This document shows, in pieces, positions 14,146 through 22,144 of a stretch of 64,000 nt of DNA. The notes beneath the pieces were generated by a model. That model had not been told where the DNA came from. It ran no database searches and saw nothing but the letters and a program-made list of their open reading frames with translations. The stretch covers positions 124,001 through 188,000 of the forward strand of contig NZ_QAJN01000007.1 of the NCBI RefSeq assembly GCF_003852425.1. The letters are read 5' to 3'. The DNA is from Paucibacter sp. KBW04 (lineage in GTDB: Bacteria > Pseudomonadota > Gammaproteobacteria > Burkholderiales > Burkholderiaceae_C). Position numbers and translations under genes: made by a program. How positions within the stretch are numbered: position 1 is the stretch's first letter; the number at the start of each line of letters is the position of its first letter.

Positions 14146-17100
14146 ATGCCATTCAACAAACCCGAAACCCAGCTGCAAGGCATCACCGATCTGGTGCTCA
14201 TCACCCCGGTCAAAGCTGGTTTTGTGACGGCTTTTGAAACCATCAGCTACGTCGACCGCCTGCGCCGCGTGCTCAAGTCTCTCAACGCCCTGCGTCTGGG
14301 CGCGCGCGAGTCCAGCGAGGTGCCGGGCCTGTTCACCGATGTGGTGAGCCGCTTCCGCATCGTCCACTCCTTCCGCTGGGCCATCATCGAGCCCAAGCCC
14401 GACGCCCCCCTGGGCGAGCCGCACAAGCTGCTGCTCAATGTCTGCTTCGACGGCGGCTGGGAGCCCTATATGCGGGTGATCTGGGACCAGCTGGGCAGCA
14501 TGCTGGACCTGATCCTCTGCCATGCGGAGGGCTATCACCTGTCCCGGGAAACCAGCTTCGAGCGCTACAAGCAATGGGTGCGCGAGCACGAGATCTCGGC
14601 CGACTTCCTCTACTTCGAGTCCGGCCGCAGCACCAGCGACCACGAATACCTCGCCGCCCTGGAATGGCAGCAGCGCGAGCTGCATCCCAGCAATGATCTG
14701 CTCGCCACCCAGCTGCACACCGGCCTGCCCGGCGCCAGCAATCCCCTGCCTGACACCAGCCAGATGCCAGCACGAATGGCCATGGCCGTGCGCGGCCTGC
14801 CGGCCCTGGCCACGCTCTACACCCTGGACCGCTACTTCCTGGCCGGTGCGCCCGACGGCTATTGCCTGATCCGCGCGGCGCGCGACATCCTCTTCGAGCT
14901 GGTGGAGCTGGACACCGCCACCCTCTTCCCGCCCGCCAGCCCCTTGCGGGAGGCCTACTACCGCATGCTGGACTGGTTTGAGCAAGCGCCGCCCAAGGTC
15001 GAGCTGCCCGCCCGGGCGCTGGACTACAGCGATGCCGACATCCAAGGCGGCATGCTCAGCGCCTACCCCGATCTGCAAGGCGGCGCCATGGTGTTGCTGC
15101 GGGTGACGCAGGCGGCCAAGGCCGTGGCCTATCTCAGCAACTTGTCACTCAATAGCGAGGCCGACACGGTGGCCGGCAAAAAGCCTGCCGACGGCTTCTA
15201 TCGCAATCTGGCGCTAAGCCTCAGCGGCCTGCGGGCCCTGGGCGTTAGCAACACGCGGCTGGAGCGATTCCCCCAGCCCTTTATCGAAGGCATGGAAGCC
15301 CGTGCCGGCGTGCTGGGCGATGTGCGCCACAACCACCCGCGCTACTGGAAGCTGCCCACCCGCAACTGGCCCGAGTCCAAGGCCGACGGTCGGCCGGTGG
15401 ACTTAGGCGCCGTGCATGTGCTGATCCAGCTGCGCCACGGCGCCCTGCCCGCGGGCAGCAGCTTGAATGCCGCCATCGCTCAGCTGGAACAAGACACGGG
15501 CTTGCAGGTGCTGTCGGTGCAAGCCATGCGCCGGGGCATCAACCCCAAGAACCCGCAGCAGACGCGCGAGAGCTTTGGCTTTGTGGACGGCATCAGCCAG
15601 CCCCAGGTCGGCCAGCCTCAGCGCCAAGGCCCCGGTCAGCCCTGGTCGGACGCGGTGCACCGTGGCGAGCTGCTCCTGGGCTTCCGCACCGACCGCGATA
15701 CCTGCGCCGTGCCCGAGGCGGCCGATGCCTTGCTGGACAAGGGCACCTTCCTGGTCGTGCGCAAGCTGCGCCAGTATGTGGATCGCCTGCACAACTGCCT
15801 GGACGCCCAAGCCCCCCAGCTGGGTCTGAACCGTGAAGAACTGCTGGGCAAGATGATGGGCCGCTGGACCGACGGCACGCCGCTGGCCGCGCCCAGCATT
15901 GGCGCGACCAACGGCTTTAACTACAGCGAAGACGCCAAGGGCTCGGCCTGCCCCTTCCATGCGCACATCCGCCGCGCCAACCCACGCACCGACATCCCCG
16001 GCCTGCCCGTGCCCCGCATCCTGCGGCGCGGCATGTCTTACGGCCCGGCCCACGGCACGAGCGAGAACGAGACACCCGATGCCGAGGACCGCGGCCTGAT
16101 CTTCATGGCCTACAACGCCAATCTGGCCGAGCAGTTCGAGATCATTCAACGCTGGATCTCCGGCGGCAATGCCAGCGGTGGCTATGCCGGCCAGGCCGAC
16201 CCCTTCCTGGGCGTGGCCGTGCCGCAAACGCCGGCCGCCAAGGCCCTGCCCTCCACCACCCCACGCATCTACCGCTTTGAGCATCAGGGTGAGGTCAAAC
16301 ATCTGAACCTGGGCGACCAGCCCTTTGTCGAGCTGCAATGGGGCGCCTACTTCTTCGTGCCCTCGCTGCAAGCCCTACGCCTGCTGCCGGCCCTGGTGGA
16401 GCTGCCCGCCTTCCCAACACCCATCGCCCTGCCCAGCCGCGCCCCCGATACGGCCGATGCCCAGGCCTGGCAGCAATGGCTGGAGGACAGCAGCAGCCGC
16501 GACGCCGCCTGGGCCTATGTGCGCAGCCAACCCGGTGGCGTGCTGCGCACCGCTTACGGCGTGCTGGTGGGCGAGGCGCGCGAGGTCTGCGAGGTCTTCC
16601 GCGACCGCGAGTCGCGTTACTCGGTGACGGGCTATGGCTCGCGCATGGCCCAGTCCATCGGCCGTGGCTATCTGGGCATGGACGAGGACAGCGGCCATGC
16701 CGAGCAAGCGCCTGCCATCAATGCGGCGATCGAAAGCATCGACGAAGCCAGCGCCTTCGCCGCCGCCCACGCGGTGGCGGCCGCCGTCGTCGCCCGGGTG
16801 CGCGGCGGCGCCCAGCAGCTGCATCTCAAAGAAGCCTTGCTGGATGTGGAGCAGCTCTCGGAGCATGTGCTGGCGGCCTTGTGCAAAACCTGGTTCGGCC
16901 TGCCCGATGGCCAGGCCATGTGGGGCACCGAGTGGCATGCCAAGCCAGCCGATGGCCAGGAAGCACCGCGCTGCCCGCGCGACTTCTTCGCCGTCTCACG
17001 CTTCGTCTTCGGCCCCCATCCCAGCGAGGTGGTCGGCAAGGTGGCGAGCAAGAAAGGCCAGGGCCTGCAAGCCGCCGTCAAGCAGTGGCTGGCCGCTCAA

Positions 17101-17691
17101 GCGCCCGATGCGCCCCTGCCCAAGCTGAGCCAGGCGATCAAAGACGCGCTGCAAGGCCAAAGCGGCCAAGACCCCGACATCATCCCGCGCACCATCGCCG
17201 GCATCATGCTGGGCTTCCCGCCCACCGTGCATGGCAACACCCTCGCCTGTCTGGGGGCCTGGGTCCTTAGCAAAAAGCTCTGGGATGTGCAGCAAGACTG
17301 GCCGCGCTTTGCCGCCGGCACGCCATCCGCGCAGGTTTATGCCCAGGCCGTCGCCGCCCTAAGGCCCACCCTGCTCGCCACCATGGTGGGCCGCCCGGTG
17401 CCGGGCATGGTCTGGCGCACGGCGCGCAAGCCCCATCGAATCGGCGCAGTGGAAGTGCAGCAGGGCGACACCGTGATCGTGGGCATCGCCTCGGCCACCC
17501 AGCAAGACCCTCGCAATCACACCCTGATGTTTGGCGGCGACCGCCGCGACGCGGTCTTGCCCGCCCCCCTGCACGCCTGCCCGGGCTATGCCATGGCCAT
17601 GGGGGTGATGCTGGGGGTGGCGGCGGCGGTGCTGGAGGCCGGCACTCTGCGATTCACGGGCTCGCCGACGGTGTTGGGCTTACAAGTCTGA
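14146..17691 (+). CDS. DyP-type peroxidase / cytochrome P450 fusion protein
   Basis: 1181 residues in one open frame. Residues 1-~290 are an N-terminal region I cannot name. Residues ~295-760 are a DyP-type haem peroxidase: GFVDG at 478-482 (distal Asp 481), likely proximal His 607 in HAHIRRANPR, distal Arg 628 in LRRGMSYGP exactly 21 residues after the His as in known DyPs, and the MAYNANLAEQFEIIQ core. Residues ~790-1181 are P450-like with the haem-thiolate signature LHACPGYAMA (Cys 1145) and VPGMVWRTA. Oddly the P450 I-helix reads AGIML (1018-1022) without the acid/Thr pair, and the K-helix ExxR has Ala 1070 for Glu (Arg 1073 kept). AGGGAG stands eight bases before the ATG. No signal peptide or redox partner is seen, so peroxide-driven chemistry is plausible but inferred. 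Confidence 0.88.
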   Translation: MPFNKPETQLQGITDLVLITPVKAGFVTAFETISYVDRLRRVLKSLNALRLGARESSEVPGLFTDVVSRFRIVHSFRWAIIEPKPDAPLGEPHKLLLNVCFDGGWEPYMRVIWDQLGSMLDLILCHAEGYHLSRETSFERYKQWVREHEISADFLYFESGRSTSDHEYLAALEWQQRELHPSNDLLATQLHTGLPGASNPLPDTSQMPARMAMAVRGLPALATLYTLDRYFLAGAPDGYCLIRAARDILFELVELDTATLFPPASPLREAYYRMLDWFEQAPPKVELPARALDYSDADIQGGMLSAYPDLQGGAMVLLRVTQAAKAVAYLSNLSLNSEADTVAGKKPADGFYRNLALSLSGLRALGVSNTRLERFPQPFIEGMEARAGVLGDVRHNHPRYWKLPTRNWPESKADGRPVDLGAVHVLIQLRHGALPAGSSLNAAIAQLEQDTGLQVLSVQAMRRGINPKNPQQTRESFGFVDGISQPQVGQPQRQGPGQPWSDAVHRGELLLGFRTDRDTCAVPEAADALLDKGTFLVVRKLRQYVDRLHNCLDAQAPQLGLNREELLGKMMGRWTDGTPLAAPSIGATNGFNYSEDAKGSACPFHAHIRRANPRTDIPGLPVPRILRRGMSYGPAHGTSENETPDAEDRGLIFMAYNANLAEQFEIIQRWISGGNASGGYAGQADPFLGVAVPQTPAAKALPSTTPRIYRFEHQGEVKHLNLGDQPFVELQWGAYFFVPSLQALRLLPALVELPAFPTPIALPSRAPDTADAQAWQQWLEDSSSRDAAWAYVRSQPGGVLRTAYGVLVGEAREVCEVFRDRESRYSVTGYGSRMAQSIGRGYLGMDEDSGHAEQAPAINAAIESIDEASAFAAAHAVAAAVVARVRGGAQQLHLKEALLDVEQLSEHVLAALCKTWFGLPDGQAMWGTEWHAKPADGQEAPRCPRDFFAVSRFVFGPHPSEVVGKVASKKGQGLQAAVKQWLAAQAPDAPLPKLSQAIKDALQGQSGQDPDIIPRTIAGIMLGFPPTVHGNTLACLGAWVLSKKLWDVQQDWPRFAAGTPSAQVYAQAVAALRPTLLATMVGRPVPGMVWRTARKPHRIGAVEVQQGDTVIVGIASATQQDPRNHTLMFGGDRRDAVLPAPLHACPGYAMAMGVMLGVAAAVLEAGTLRFTGSPTVLGLQV

Positions 17692-20600
17692 ACGCAAGCG
17701 CCTGACCTCACCCAAGTGCCAGGCCATGCCCAGGCGGCCAAACGCCGCTTCGGCCTGATCCAGCTCAGGCTCGGCGCGGCGTCCCAGCATCTGCGCCAGC
17801 TCGGCGCGGCAAAGCTGGTTCACCGCCAACTCATGGGCCGAGCCGCGGCGCCGGGCCACCTGGTCGGCACGGGCCAGATAACGCTCAATTTCAAGGTCTC
17901 GCTGGGCCTCGCTCAAACCCTGCCTGGCCATGGCCGGGCAGGCCGTCAAGCGTGCGGCGGCGCGGTAGGCCATGGCCACGCCGATCAAATCGTGCTGGCG
18001 CGCGCGGCACAGGGCCTGGGCGATGTGGTGGCGGGCCAGGCTGGCCTCGCCCTGGCTGACCAGGATTTCGGCCAGCCAGCCATGGTTGAGCGAATTGAAC
18101 AGGCCGCCGCCGCGCGGGGCCAGCCAATGTGTGGCATTGAGCAAGTCCTGCCGCGCCACCGGTGAACGGCTGGCCATCCACAGGCCGTAAGCCTGGGCGG
18201 CATGGCCCATGGCACAGGTGAACAGGCTGCGCACCAGGGTGCCGATGCGACGTGAATCGGCGGCGCAGACCTGCGCCTCACTCCAACGCCCCTGCCACAG
18301 CAGCACGGCGGCACGCCAGCCTAGGATGGACGCCTCCACCGCATGGTTGCTGCCCTGGATGCTGGACAGGGCCTCGTCGAAGGCCGCCTGCGCCTGGGCG
18401 AACTCACCTCGGTCGCCCAGCACATAAGCACGGCAGGCCAGCGAGTAGGCCAGGCCCACGGGCGGGCGGCCGGGGCGCTGACGCGGGCGTTGAAAGGCGA
18501 TGGTGCCGTCCAGCAATTGCAGGGCGGCCTCGTAGTCGGCGGCGGCGGCCCGCACCTGGCCCAGGGTGCCATGCAATTGGGCCAGCAAGGCGGCGTCCCC
18601 CCCCTGCTCGGCCGCGGCCAAGCCGCGTTCGCAGTGCAGGGTGCTGGCGCGGGCCTGGCCCAGGGCATAGCTGACATAGCCCAGCCAGTACTCGGTGCGG
18701 GCGATCAAGTCCGGATTGCCGCTCAGCTGGGCCAGCTTGGCGGCATGCTGCATCACCCGCAGATCGGCACGCGAGGCGTCGAACACGCAGGCCATGCCGA
18801 AGCGCAGGGCGATGGAGATCCAGCGCAGCGCCACCTCGTCGGTTTGCGGCAGATGCTCCAAGGCCTCCAGCACTGCACGGTATTGCTTCTTGGCGCGGTC
18901 CAGGGCCGAGCTGGCCAGGGCCTGGTCGCCCGCTTGCTCGGCATGATGGGCGGCGGCTTCCCACTGCTGGGCGGCGCGGCTGTGATAGGCCAGCAGCTCA
19001 TTGGCCGGCTCCTCGCGCACACCGTCTTGCGGCACTGCAAGCAGCTCGGCCAGGATCTTGCGATGCATGGCCTGGCGGGCTTGCAGGCCGATGGCCTCGT
19101 AGACCACATCACGGGCCATGCCGTGCTTGAAGCGCAGCTGGCCGGGGCGCTGGGCGGGGAAGACAAAATCCTGTTCGGCCAGGCGGCGCACGGCCGGGTG
19201 CGACTCGTCACAGCCGGTGACGCGCTGCAAAAGCCAAACCGGGATCACATTGCCGATGACGGCCGCGGTGCGCAGCAGCTCGGCCTCATCGGCCGGCAAG
19301 CGCGCCATCCGCGACTCGACCAGAGAAGACAACCAGGCGCTGCCCGAGCCCACCTGCTTGCCCAGGCTGCTGCCTTCGGGCGAGGCCGCATGGCTGGCAA
19401 AGGCGCCGAAATTGCGCGCTGCTTCCTCGGCGCTGCCCTCGTGCGAGAGCGCATGGCACAGCTCCTCGATAAACAAGGGGTTGCCGCCGGCGTGGCGTTG
19501 AATCTCCGCTGCCCAAAAGGGGTCGACATGGGGTAGCAGCTGGCTGGTGGCGTGCAGAGACTCCTGCTCGGTGAAGGGCTGCAACTCATGCACCTGCACC
19601 TCGGCGTCGCTGCGCACCTTGGCAGCCTGGCTGATCAGCTCGGGCAGGCTTTCCAGCGAGTTCTGGCTGTGCGGACGGGTGGCCGTCAACACCAGCAGGG
19701 GCAGCTTGAACTCGGCCGCCACCGCGCGCAAGCGGTGCAGCAAGGCTACGCTGGCATCGTCGGCCCATTGCAAATCGTCGATGAAGAGCAGCTGGGGCAA
19801 GTCGCTGGCCAGCTCCATCATCAGGCTCAGCACCGCCTCGGCCCGCGCCTTGGGCTGCAGCTGCAGCACCGCCTCGGCGGCCGGCTTGCCCGGACCCTGC
19901 AGGCTGCGCAGCATCTGCAGATAGGGCTGCAAGGGCTCGGCGCTGAGGTGCGACTCGCAATAGCCACGGTGAATCTGGCAATGCTCATCGGCGGCGCGCT
20001 GCAAGAACTCCTCGGTCAAGCGCGTCTTGCCCACGCCAGCGCCGGCGCGGACGCTGATCCAGCGCGGGCGCCCGGCACAGGCCGCATGGAGGGCCTGCTC
20101 CAGCAAGCTCATCTCAAAGTCACGACCGACGAAGGGTGTCAGGCCACGCTTTTGGCTGGCCTCAAAACGGCGTTTGATGTCGTTGCGGCCCAGCACCTTG
20201 CACACCGACAAGGGCGTGGCCCGGCCCCGCACCAGCAGGCTGCGGCGCTCATCCAGCTGAAAGAACTGGCCTTGCAGGCCCAGGCTGACCTCGCTGACCA
20301 GGATTTCGTCGGCAGCGGCCGCCTCGCACAGGCGGGCGGCGATATTGGGCACATTGCCCAGCAGCTCGAAGCGGCCGCGCACCTCGTCGCCCGCCTCCAT
20401 CAGCACCAGGCCGGCGTGGATGCCGGAATGCAGTGTCAGGCTGCGGCGATGCGGCCAGCAAGGCGCGCCCGAGCTGGGCCGCATGGCGCGCACGGCTTCG
20501 TGCAGGTCGAGGGCGGCGTAGGCGGCGCGGCGGCCGTCGTCCTCGCCGCTATTCGGATAGCCAAAAATGGCCAACATGCCATCGCCCTGGATGCGCACCA

Positions 20601-20790
20601 CCATGCCGCCGTGTTGCCGCACTAGGCCCTGGTAGAGGCCGCGCAGCTCGCTCAGCATCAAGGCGTAGTCTTCCGCCTCCATGGCATCCGCGAGACGTGT
20701 CGACTCGGACAAATCTGCAAATAACAGGGTCAAGTTGCGCCGCTGCCCTAAGACCCCCAGCGCCGGCGCGATATCGGACTGAATGGTCAT
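17680..20790 (-). CDS. class III adenylate/guanylate cyclase with AAA ATPase and TPR-like region
   Basis: A 1036-residue signalling protein. An N-terminal class III cyclase domain has metal-binding Asp 26 (FADLSEST) and Asp 70 (QGDGMLAIFG) and transition-state residues Asn 149 and Arg 153 (NVPNIAAR), so it looks active. An AAA/STAND-type ATPase follows with Walker A AGAGVGKT (ending T256) and Walker B LLFIDDLQWADD, then a long helical TPR-like C-terminus. This architecture is widespread in Burkholderiales and Rhizobiales; nucleotide specificity and signal are unknown. No membrane segments. It ends 12 bases inside the 3' end of the convergent DyP-P450 gene. It follows the degenerate cyclase gene by ~95 bases. 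Confidence 0.92.
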   Translation of the reverse strand: MTIQSDIAPALGVLGQRRNLTLLFADLSESTRLADAMEAEDYALMLSELRGLYQGLVRQHGGMVVRIQGDGMLAIFGYPNSGEDDGRRAAYAALDLHEAVRAMRPSSGAPCWPHRRSLTLHSGIHAGLVLMEAGDEVRGRFELLGNVPNIAARLCEAAAADEILVSEVSLGLQGQFFQLDERRSLLVRGRATPLSVCKVLGRNDIKRRFEASQKRGLTPFVGRDFEMSLLEQALHAACAGRPRWISVRAGAGVGKTRLTEEFLQRAADEHCQIHRGYCESHLSAEPLQPYLQMLRSLQGPGKPAAEAVLQLQPKARAEAVLSLMMELASDLPQLLFIDDLQWADDASVALLHRLRAVAAEFKLPLLVLTATRPHSQNSLESLPELISQAAKVRSDAEVQVHELQPFTEQESLHATSQLLPHVDPFWAAEIQRHAGGNPLFIEELCHALSHEGSAEEAARNFGAFASHAASPEGSSLGKQVGSGSAWLSSLVESRMARLPADEAELLRTAAVIGNVIPVWLLQRVTGCDESHPAVRRLAEQDFVFPAQRPGQLRFKHGMARDVVYEAIGLQARQAMHRKILAELLAVPQDGVREEPANELLAYHSRAAQQWEAAAHHAEQAGDQALASSALDRAKKQYRAVLEALEHLPQTDEVALRWISIALRFGMACVFDASRADLRVMQHAAKLAQLSGNPDLIARTEYWLGYVSYALGQARASTLHCERGLAAAEQGGDAALLAQLHGTLGQVRAAAADYEAALQLLDGTIAFQRPRQRPGRPPVGLAYSLACRAYVLGDRGEFAQAQAAFDEALSSIQGSNHAVEASILGWRAAVLLWQGRWSEAQVCAADSRRIGTLVRSLFTCAMGHAAQAYGLWMASRSPVARQDLLNATHWLAPRGGGLFNSLNHGWLAEILVSQGEASLARHHIAQALCRARQHDLIGVAMAYRAAARLTACPAMARQGLSEAQRDLEIERYLARADQVARRRGSAHELAVNQLCRAELAQMLGRRAEPELDQAEAAFGRLGMAWHLGEVRRLRSDL

Positions 20791-20884: not shown

Positions 20885-22144
20885 CTAAGTTCGTGCAATT
20901 GGGGTCGAAAACTTGTGCATTTCCTCTTCTTGCAGCCCCAAATAGATGGGCTCGCCCCGCCGACGGTGGATATTGATCTTGGCGTTATAGACCCGGTGCG
21001 GCAGGCCATGCTTATCGCTGATCTCGAATTCGCTGATGCCGAACTCACCCCGCTCGTCCCGCCTGCCGGTCAGGTAGCAAGCGATCTCATCGATCTCCGC
21101 CCCACCCAGATTGAGCCCGCCCAGCTGCTTGAGCGGGTTGCGGGCGCGCTCGACAAAGCCCAGGCTGTCGATGCGGCGCTGCTGCCCGTCCTGCTCATCG
21201 CGCATCAAGGTGCTGAACTTACCCACCAGGATCTGCCCCGGCAGGGCGCGCTCCAGCATACGAGCCAGCTCGATGGTGACCTGCCCGACCAAATAGCTGA
21301 AGGAGGTGGGGTTGAGCCCCTCCGACTGATAAAACTCGTAGTGCGAACCGACGTGGAAGGCGGCGCGCAGCTGCGGCACCGACTCCGGCCGCTGCGCTCG
21401 CTCTCTGGCCAGGGCGTTGTCCGCCAGGATGAATTGCAGCAGCTGGTAGAGCTCCACATTGGCCTCGATGCCGCGCATGCGGTTCCAGATGTAGAAGCCG
21501 TCGCCGGTGGTGGTGCGGGCGAAGTTGATATTGATCTCGCGGTCCAGCAGCTTGGCATAGGCCGCATTGACCGAACAGGACAGGCTGTTGAGCTGCACCA
21601 CCTGCTGCAAGGGCGTCAGCAAGGAAAAGCCCACGGTGTCGAACAGGATCACCGCCCGGTCTTCCACCAGGCGAATGCCATAACGCGCCACGATGGCCGC
21701 CACCAGGCTCAGCCCCAGGCCGGCGCTGGGCGAGAAAGGCAGGGCCAGTTGCACCGGTTCCAAGCCAAACTCGGCCGCCAGGCGCTCAAACTGGGTATCG
21801 GCCAGGTGGCCGGGTTGGGCCAGCACCTCGTCGAGCAAGCGGCTGCGCCGCTGCACCTCGGCCGCAGGCAGGGCCTCACCGCCGGCCTGGGACTGACCTT
21901 GCACATACTCGGTCAGCAAGGGATGGGGGGCGAGCAAGAGCCGCAGGCCTTGCGGCAGGGGTGTCCAGGCATAGACCAAGTTCTCACCCAGATTCCAGAG
22001 GCCGTAAAGCAGCTGATCCAGGGTGACGATGTGGTCGCGCAACTCCGCCTCGCTCAAACCCTCAGGCAAGGCATAGGCCATAAACCCGTCCAACCAGGAT
22101 TTGCGCTGGCGAATCACCTCATTCAAACGCGTACTCGCACCCAT
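20885..22144 (-). CDS. class III nucleotide cyclase-like protein, degenerate active site
   Basis: A 419-residue soluble protein. Residues ~160-310 resemble a class III cyclase: VILFDTVGFS (Asp 169) and TTGDGFYIW (Asp 215) match the two metal-binding positions, and LPGQILVG matches the end of the domain. However the transition-state segment usually written V-N-x-A-A-R reads VTIELAR (289-295): the Arg is kept but the Asn is missing, so catalysis is doubtful. The N-terminal ~150 residues are helical and unassigned. It lies between a PAS hybrid kinase and a second cyclase on the same strand, suggesting one signalling operon. It could be a pseudo-cyclase sensor or partner of its neighbour. Confidence 0.72.
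   Translation of the reverse strand: MGASTRLNEVIRQRKSWLDGFMAYALPEGLSEAELRDHIVTLDQLLYGLWNLGENLVYAWTPLPQGLRLLLAPHPLLTEYVQGQSQAGGEALPAAEVQRRSRLLDEVLAQPGHLADTQFERLAAEFGLEPVQLALPFSPSAGLGLSLVAAIVARYGIRLVEDRAVILFDTVGFSLLTPLQQVVQLNSLSCSVNAAYAKLLDREININFARTTTGDGFYIWNRMRGIEANVELYQLLQFILADNALARERAQRPESVPQLRAAFHVGSHYEFYQSEGLNPTSFSYLVGQVTIELARMLERALPGQILVGKFSTLMRDEQDGQQRRIDSLGFVERARNPLKQLGGLNLGGAEIDEIACYLTGRRDERGEFGISEFEISDKHGLPHRVYNAKINIHRRRGEPIYLGLQEEEMHKFSTPIART

Follow-up and report, generated by a model that had tools for sequence, protein, structure and literature searches.

A three-domain DyP-type peroxidase and divergent cytochrome P450 fusion in Paucibacter sp. KBW04 and its genomic neighbourhood

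One frame, three domains

Paucibacter sp. KBW04 carries, within the 64,000-nucleotide stretch of DNA analysed here (contig NZ_QAJN01000007.1, positions 124,001 to 188,000; the window), a single gene whose predicted product unites a dye-decolourising (DyP-type) peroxidase with a cytochrome P450-like domain. Here, we describe the domains of this protein, its relatives in other genomes and the genes beside it, and consider what such an enzyme may do. A preliminary description of the window had reported an intact frame of 1181 codons joining the two domains, and this frame is indeed present on the forward strand. Its features, in window coordinates and with conservation given over 64 aligned rows, are as follows.

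14146..17691, + strand: fusion gene encoding N-domain, DyP peroxidase and P450-like domain, 1181 amino acids (aa) plus stop
14146..15015, + strand: N-domain, residues about 1-290, with an invariant FDGGWEPYMR stretch; DyP-associated domain
15034..16395, + strand: DyP-type peroxidase domain, residues about 297-750; Pfam, TIGR01413 and PDB matches
15586..15588, + strand: distal Asp481 of GxxDG, Asp in 64/64 rows
15964..15966, + strand: proximal His607, His in 64/64 rows
16024..16029, + strand: Arg627-Arg628, candidates for the distal Arg, R627 in 64/64 and R628 in 60/64 rows
16453..17688, + strand: divergent P450 domain, residues about 770-1181, from profile comparisons
17212..17226, + strand: GFPPT (residues 1023-1027) of the I-helix, replacing the acid-alcohol pair, from profile alignment
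17572..17586, + strand: haem-thiolate loop HACPG (H1143, C1145, G1147), conserved in 63/64 rows

The mechanical open reading frame begins further upstream, at TTG 13897; the start at 14146 is preferred because a 94% identical homologue (L002) has its ATG at the matching position. One scan of genome contigs yielded 68 loci, which are related by descent, so that counts of loci here and below are not independent. The search for homologues in other genomes proposed in the preliminary description found the fusion conserved: 63 homologues encode more than 1100 aa and keep it, and the whole frame with start and stop is present in 60 of the 68 loci, a count that excludes L005 (cut by a contig end) and L042 and L050 (which begin at a contig edge). 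Against five relatives, the ratio of nonsynonymous to synonymous substitution rates (dN/dS) was 0.10-0.36 for the P450 half, 0.15-0.46 for the DyP domain and 0.12-0.50 for the N-domain. Because the frame is whole in so many loci and dN/dS is low in each domain, it reflects neither chance nor decay, and a frameshift or a chance open frame is ruled out by this conservation and purifying selection.

The hosts of these homologues are mostly Burkholderiales (Roseateles/Pelomonas/Paucibacter, Variovorax, Pseudorhodoferax, Xenophilus and Rubrivivax), together with two Bradyrhizobium. The fusion was matched in 10 of 18 genomes of the window's genus and, at an E-value (E) of 1e-20, in 7 of 300 genomes of its order, 3 of them over the full length and including the window's own. 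Among 72,556 plasmid records 31 match the fusion, none over more than 80% of the protein, and of the 20 plasmid matches listed only that of a Sphingopyxis plasmid (NZ_CP102385.1, locus L100) extends into the P450 half. There, a shortened DyP-P450 gene (9962-12391) adjoins a Tn3 transposase.

The central part of the protein is predicted to belong to the DyP-type peroxidase superfamily, since it combines profile matches with a GxxDG motif, a proximal His and a distal Arg. It exceeds the Pfam cut-off for Dyp_perox_C (E 7.8e-8) and scores just above that of TIGR01413 (102.7 against 100.5 bits); its best PDB match is 8re3, 'Peroxidase, putative' (E 1e-32), and in the Pfam, TIGR and PDB comparisons no other peroxidase family was matched. 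The GxxDG motif and His607 named in the preliminary description are well founded: D481 and G482 are identical in 64/64 rows and G478 in 60/64, and H607, R624, R627 and G629 are identical throughout. The distal Arg had been placed at residue 628. An Arg pair is present there, of which R628 is the less constant member, and R627 is perhaps the distal residue, as would also fit the R-x-N/S pattern that we take to be that of B-type DyPs.

The N-terminal 290 or so residues, left without an assignment in the preliminary description, can now be placed. No Pfam family was matched in more than 2 of 46 N-domain members and the PDB gave no convincing match; kinship with the DyP domain or with P450s was considered and rejected (hhalign probabilities 0.5% and 0.2%). 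The N-domain does align with N-terminal repeats of a 952-aa protein ending in a DyP domain (L102; 97.8%, E 8.6e-13, 127 columns). The N-terminal 470 residues of that protein, a query that overlaps its DyP part by about ten residues, matched 19 of 398 Pseudomonadota genomes; each of the 18 regions retrieved, like L104 of the nineteenth genome, has a DyP at most about 1.4 kb away or in the same frame. By this constant association the N-domain is a DyP-associated domain, one that occurs also without P450. A profile of the window-type N-domain (A1) found, in 398 genomes, own-type genes and two weak pieces only.

In 7 of the 18 retrieved regions a P450 accompanies the N-domain and the DyP. Five of these (L122, L123, L137, L138 and L139) encode a single frame of 1408-1535 aa in the order P450, N-domain, DyP; in L128 and L135 the three are neighbouring genes. 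L122, L137, L138 and L139 belong to one genus and L123 to another family, so that the number of independent cases is below seven. All seven DyP-associated P450s possess ExxR and GxHxCxG. Their I-helix motif is GFxPT in the five permuted fusions, as in the window-type P450 halves, GAIPT in L135 and GGPPQ in L128. By eye, the permuted fusions have hydrophobic membrane-like stretches separating their two N-domain repeats; none was seen in the window protein. A subtilase (S8) peptidase gene occurs near two of the permuted fusions (L122, 1856-5533, by Pfam; L137, 11185-14859, by likeness) and also near the Sphingopyxis copy (L100, 17039-18631, by annotation).

The C-terminal domain is a P450 of an unusual kind. 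Residues about 770-1181 of the window protein gave no Pfam match over any cut-off, the Pfam p450 model was silent in 46/46 P450 halves, and NCBIfam returned no useful match. A profile of the 46 halves, searched against the PDB with E allowed up to 10, gave 27 hits, of which 25 are P450s (counting NzeB, NascB and AspB), all of them weak (best E 0.0032). In hhalign, where E-values refer to single comparisons, this profile aligned with nine ordinary P450s (95.4%, E 1.9e-8, 342 columns) and with the seven DyP-associated P450s (98.9%, E 1e-17, 316 columns); control comparisons gave 0.1% and 0.2%. Pfam was run on five of the seven, each of which exceeds the p450 cut-off. Querying the N-domain regions by BLAST with an own-type half (L038) gave no match, not even to the seven P450s, and the kinship therefore rests on profiles. 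A profile of the P450 half (A2) found in 299 genomes own-type genes and one weak piece only.

The haem-thiolate loop reported earlier is confirmed, H1143, C1145 and G1147 being identical in every row except L005, whose contig ends before the loop. Two signatures had been described as missing, and both are, though at other residues than those first named. The acid/Thr pair of the I-helix had been sought at AGIML; the motif lies instead at GFPPT, which aligns with GHETT in an ordinary P450 and in which the acid position is P, A, L, G or T and the alcohol position is Pro in 63/64 rows. The Glu of the K-helix ExxR had been placed at Ala1070, an assignment we reject because the profile alignments put the ExxR register at A1078/V1081; no in-register ExxR is present, and out-of-register ExxR strings occur in 7/64 rows. 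On these profile alignments, the C-terminal part is a P450 by descent that lacks the two usual signatures. G1023 is identical in 64/64 rows. A Cys-Pro pair in this half (residues 943-944, 16972-16977) is likewise invariant in 64/64 rows and may represent a second thiol.

A P450 half that lacks both signatures and escapes the Pfam model in every member might bind no haem and, without catalysing anything, serve the structure or regulation of a functional DyP. Several observations argue otherwise. The Cys loop is conserved as described, W1090 and R1091 are identical in 64/64 rows, dN/dS was lower for the P450 half than for the DyP half against each of the five relatives, and the permuted relatives retain a complete-looking P450 in the same partnership. 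We regard a haem-free P450 half as rather unlikely.

Cyclase and lipase neighbours

Two further genes of the window lie beside the fusion.

17680..20790, - strand: class III nucleotidyl cyclase, AAA_16 and TPR protein, 1036 aa, by Pfam; convergent, with a 12-base overlap with the fusion end
20885..22144, - strand: 419-aa protein, conserved next to the cyclase gene in Roseateles-group loci

Pfam identifies the cyclase neighbour by Guanylate_cyc (E 3.3e-17) and AAA_16 (E 6.4e-20), with weak TPR matches. Four of its residues, Asp26, Asp70, Asn149 and Arg153, we take to be catalytic; both Asp residues are kept in 20/20 aligned relatives, and Asn149 and Arg153 in 16/20. The 419-aa protein has no match in Pfam, PDB or PADLOC, and by eye parts of it look like a class III cyclase.

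The cyclase-AAA-TPR gene follows the fusion in most loci. Eight of the 68 end too early to judge, and among the 60 that can be assessed the gene is downstream in 55, at 250 base pairs (bp) or less in 43 (41 convergent, 2 codirectional) and further off in 12; in 5 there is no cyclase in the locus DNA. All 10 fusion genomes of the window's genus have the cyclase, and in the 300-genome sample, where up to two candidates per genome were scored, the 3 genomes with the cyclase (E 1e-60) are those with the full-length fusion. A Crp-type gene adjoins the cyclase in L031, L041 (checked by Pfam) and L050.

This linkage could be inherited gene order without functional meaning. Such a history would account for the mostly convergent orientation, for the loci in which the cyclase is distant or missing, and for the 4 genomes, among 18 of the genus, that have a cyclase but no fusion. 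Yet the partnership recurs in other forms. In L122, L137, L138 and L139 the permuted fusion is directly flanked by a cyclase-TPR gene on its upstream side and a Crp-type gene on its downstream side (those of L137 assigned by likeness to those of L122), and the cyclases scanned there are of a different kind, with no AAA part, albeit in a single genus. In another family (L127, 3442-13430), N-domain and DyP genes without P450 are accompanied, about 2.3 kb past the N-domain gene, by a cyclase-AAA-TPR gene in convergent orientation and a gene of the Crp type. The Sphingopyxis plasmid copy keeps the window's order, with a convergent cyclase-AAA gene after the fusion and then an annotated Crp/Fnr gene, and in Bradyrhizobium the fusion and cyclase form a pair in the other orientation. 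Gene order kept merely by descent is an explanation that we consider distinctly unlikely.

Lipolytic genes adjoin the fusion in several lineages. Of 62 loci in which an upstream gene was called (the window and L100 included), 9 have a patatin gene 20-56 bp upstream in the same direction; two of the nine, L047 and L048, seem to be the same organism. All nine patatins have the GxSxG and DGG motifs, and the four that were scanned pass the Pfam cut-off; in L105 another patatin precedes the Met matching that of relatives by about 58 bp. A GDSL hydrolase gene is found 33 bp upstream of the fusion in L026 and downstream with a 4-bp overlap in L103, and in L101 a GDSL domain is fused to the C-terminus. 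NCBIfam gave no useful result for the patatin and GDSL proteins. In two Variovorax loci (L025, 6848-7921; L043, 7081-7962), membrane-protein-like genes without a Pfam match, alike by eye, lie directly upstream of the fusion, at 56 and 12 bp.

The two haem motifs in one chain would also suit a peroxygenase pair whose substrate is no lipid but an aromatic compound or a secondary metabolite, with the P450 using H2O2 and the DyP oxidising its product or clearing surplus peroxide. DyPs act on aromatic substrates, and patatin and GDSL queries gave no match in 20 N-domain regions, the permuted fusions included. Set against this are the lipolytic genes, once fused, beside the fusion in several lineages, and we think a non-lipid substrate unlikely.

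A defence or conflict system, in which membranes are damaged by the lipase and haem enzymes once a STAND-like cyclase detects an intruder, would explain the match of the AAA-TPR protein's cyclase part to the PycC models of PADLOC and the presence of copies on plasmids; patatins are effectors in cyclic-nucleotide defence. However, PADLOC gave no match for the fusion, the 419-aa protein, the L038 patatin or the L026 GDSL protein, and the PycTIR match of the L041 Crp protein is confined to its part binding cyclic nucleoside monophosphate (cNMP). Among the six proteins scanned, the Pycsar combination of a PycC cyclase with a cNMP-activated effector was not found. A role in defence appears very unlikely.

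A possible role in lipid oxidation and signalling

We propose, with a probability of roughly 0.4, that the fusion is a reductase-independent two-haem enzyme for lipid peroxides or hydroperoxides, a candidate for a bacterial synthase of the oxylipin type with a link to cyclic-nucleotide signalling. In this scheme, one protein would hold two haem sites, as predicted from its motifs. The DyP site would probably react with H2O2 or a lipid hydroperoxide, and the P450 site would probably work without O2, NAD(P)H or a reductase, rearranging or using peroxide in the manner of CYP74 and prostacyclin synthase. The two sites might share a peroxide, as the preliminary description suggested. In a Pfam scan of the fusion and four neighbouring window proteins, no reductase gene turned up near the fusion. 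From gene context, the probable substrate is a fatty acyl chain or related lipid, which patatin or GDSL hydrolases may release in the lineages that have them. The cyclase, joined in some loci by Crp, might either sense the product or use a cyclic nucleotide to control the enzyme. Most informative in this evidence are neighbours that the preliminary description does not mention, the conserved cyclase and, in some relatives, the lipases, and the context of the fusion suggests an unstudied bacterial route for making or handling oxidised lipids.

A number of observations weigh against this proposal. With ExxR lost, the P450 half may not bind haem. A patatin or GDSL gene is directly upstream in only 10 of 62 loci, most having neither, and the GDSL matches score below the curated Pfam cut-offs. 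Pfam found no lipase among the four scanned neighbours in the window, and searches of its own genome, made without a positive control, turned up nothing related to the L029 patatin and, for GDSL, only a marginal match (E 0.005). On a tree, patatin and GDSL presence required 2 changes each, counted only against the other's rows, which 93 and 103 of 500 shuffles matched; the tree thus gives no proof of independent lipase gains. The mostly convergent arrangement means that cyclase and fusion form no single operon, the cyclase also occurs by itself, the permuted fusion of L123 has upstream a TPR protein without a cyclase domain, and the shared descent of the loci makes their counts non-independent. 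Since a single genus supplies all four permuted cyclase/Crp cases, and since the lipase queries drew no match in the N-domain regions, readings that invoke lipid signalling deserve less weight.

This caution applies also to a bolder form of the proposal, which we hold to be unlikely: that a bacterial counterpart of eicosanoid signalling was built from unrelated parts, with a lipase freeing an acyl chain, the DyP-P450 making an oxylipin by reductase-free two-haem chemistry and the cyclase-Crp pair reading the product as a second-messenger signal, the partnership having been put together two or more times, with its domains in different orders. If the P450 half of the fusion works, bacterial oxylipin signalling through cyclic nucleotides could be tested in named Variovorax, Roseateles and Bradyrhizobium strains.

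Relation to known enzymes

The closest analogues are the fungal fusions of a fatty-acid dioxygenase or peroxidase to a P450 (Ppo, linoleate diol and allene oxide synthases), in which, as here, a single chain carries a haem peroxidase-type domain and, after it, an atypical P450, and whose P450 isomerises a hydroperoxide without a reductase. The comparison with Ppo enzymes made in the preliminary description holds as a functional analogy and fails as homology: Pfam matches no domain of the peroxidase-cyclooxygenase superfamily before the P450 and gives a DyP instead. The present fusion differs further in its extra N-domain, its bacterial setting and its cyclase neighbours. Known in kind as a peroxidase-P450 fusion, it is new in being built from a different peroxidase, and perhaps in more if the link to signalling is true. 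If its P450 half works, the arrangement of the fungal fusions would have been reached here by convergence, from an unrelated peroxidase; some unexplained bacterial DyPs would then gain a candidate lipid role, and the protein would illustrate how far a P450 can drift with its Cys loop retained.

According to one article, CYP74 P450s require neither O2 nor redox partners, and prostacyclin synthase (CYP8A1) is likened to them (PMC10813956). The CYP74 clan and CYP8A1 have an altered I-helix region in common with the window P450 half, which, in contrast to them, has lost ExxR and is fused. No CYP74- or CYP8A1-named chain was among the 27 PDB hits of the P450-half profile. On the peroxidase side, the DyPs of PDB entries 8re3, 7anv (D-type), 4g2c and 6fsk match the DyP part with E from 1e-32 to 7e-24, and the window DyP differs from them by its fusion to the N-domain and the P450. 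The permuted fusions share all three parts and GFxPT with the window protein, and four of the five have cyclase and Crp neighbours (in one genus); they differ in domain order, in keeping ExxR and in scanned cyclases without AAA. Among the matches listed in a search of titles and abstract openings in the open-access literature, we found neither a DyP-P450 or peroxidase-P450 fusion of the window kind nor a P450-N-domain-DyP fusion.

Bacterial oxylipin synthesis by haem proteins has a precedent. Pseudomonas aeruginosa makes oxylipins from oleate with two haem proteins, one a dioxygenase and the other a hydroperoxide isomerase (PA2077/PA2078; PMC5155153). The term P450 is absent from the text of that paper. 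The oleate diol synthase shares this theme with the proposed enzyme and differs in belonging to the di-haem cytochrome c peroxidase family and in comprising two genes. A di-haem cytochrome c peroxidase gene (NCBIfam NF040606, 442.6 bits) adjoins the N-domain and DyP of L104 (6385-10495), 1 of 20 N-domain regions to have such a neighbour, and shares with PA2077/PA2078, as named in PMC5155153, the family name 'di-heme-cytochrome C peroxidase'.

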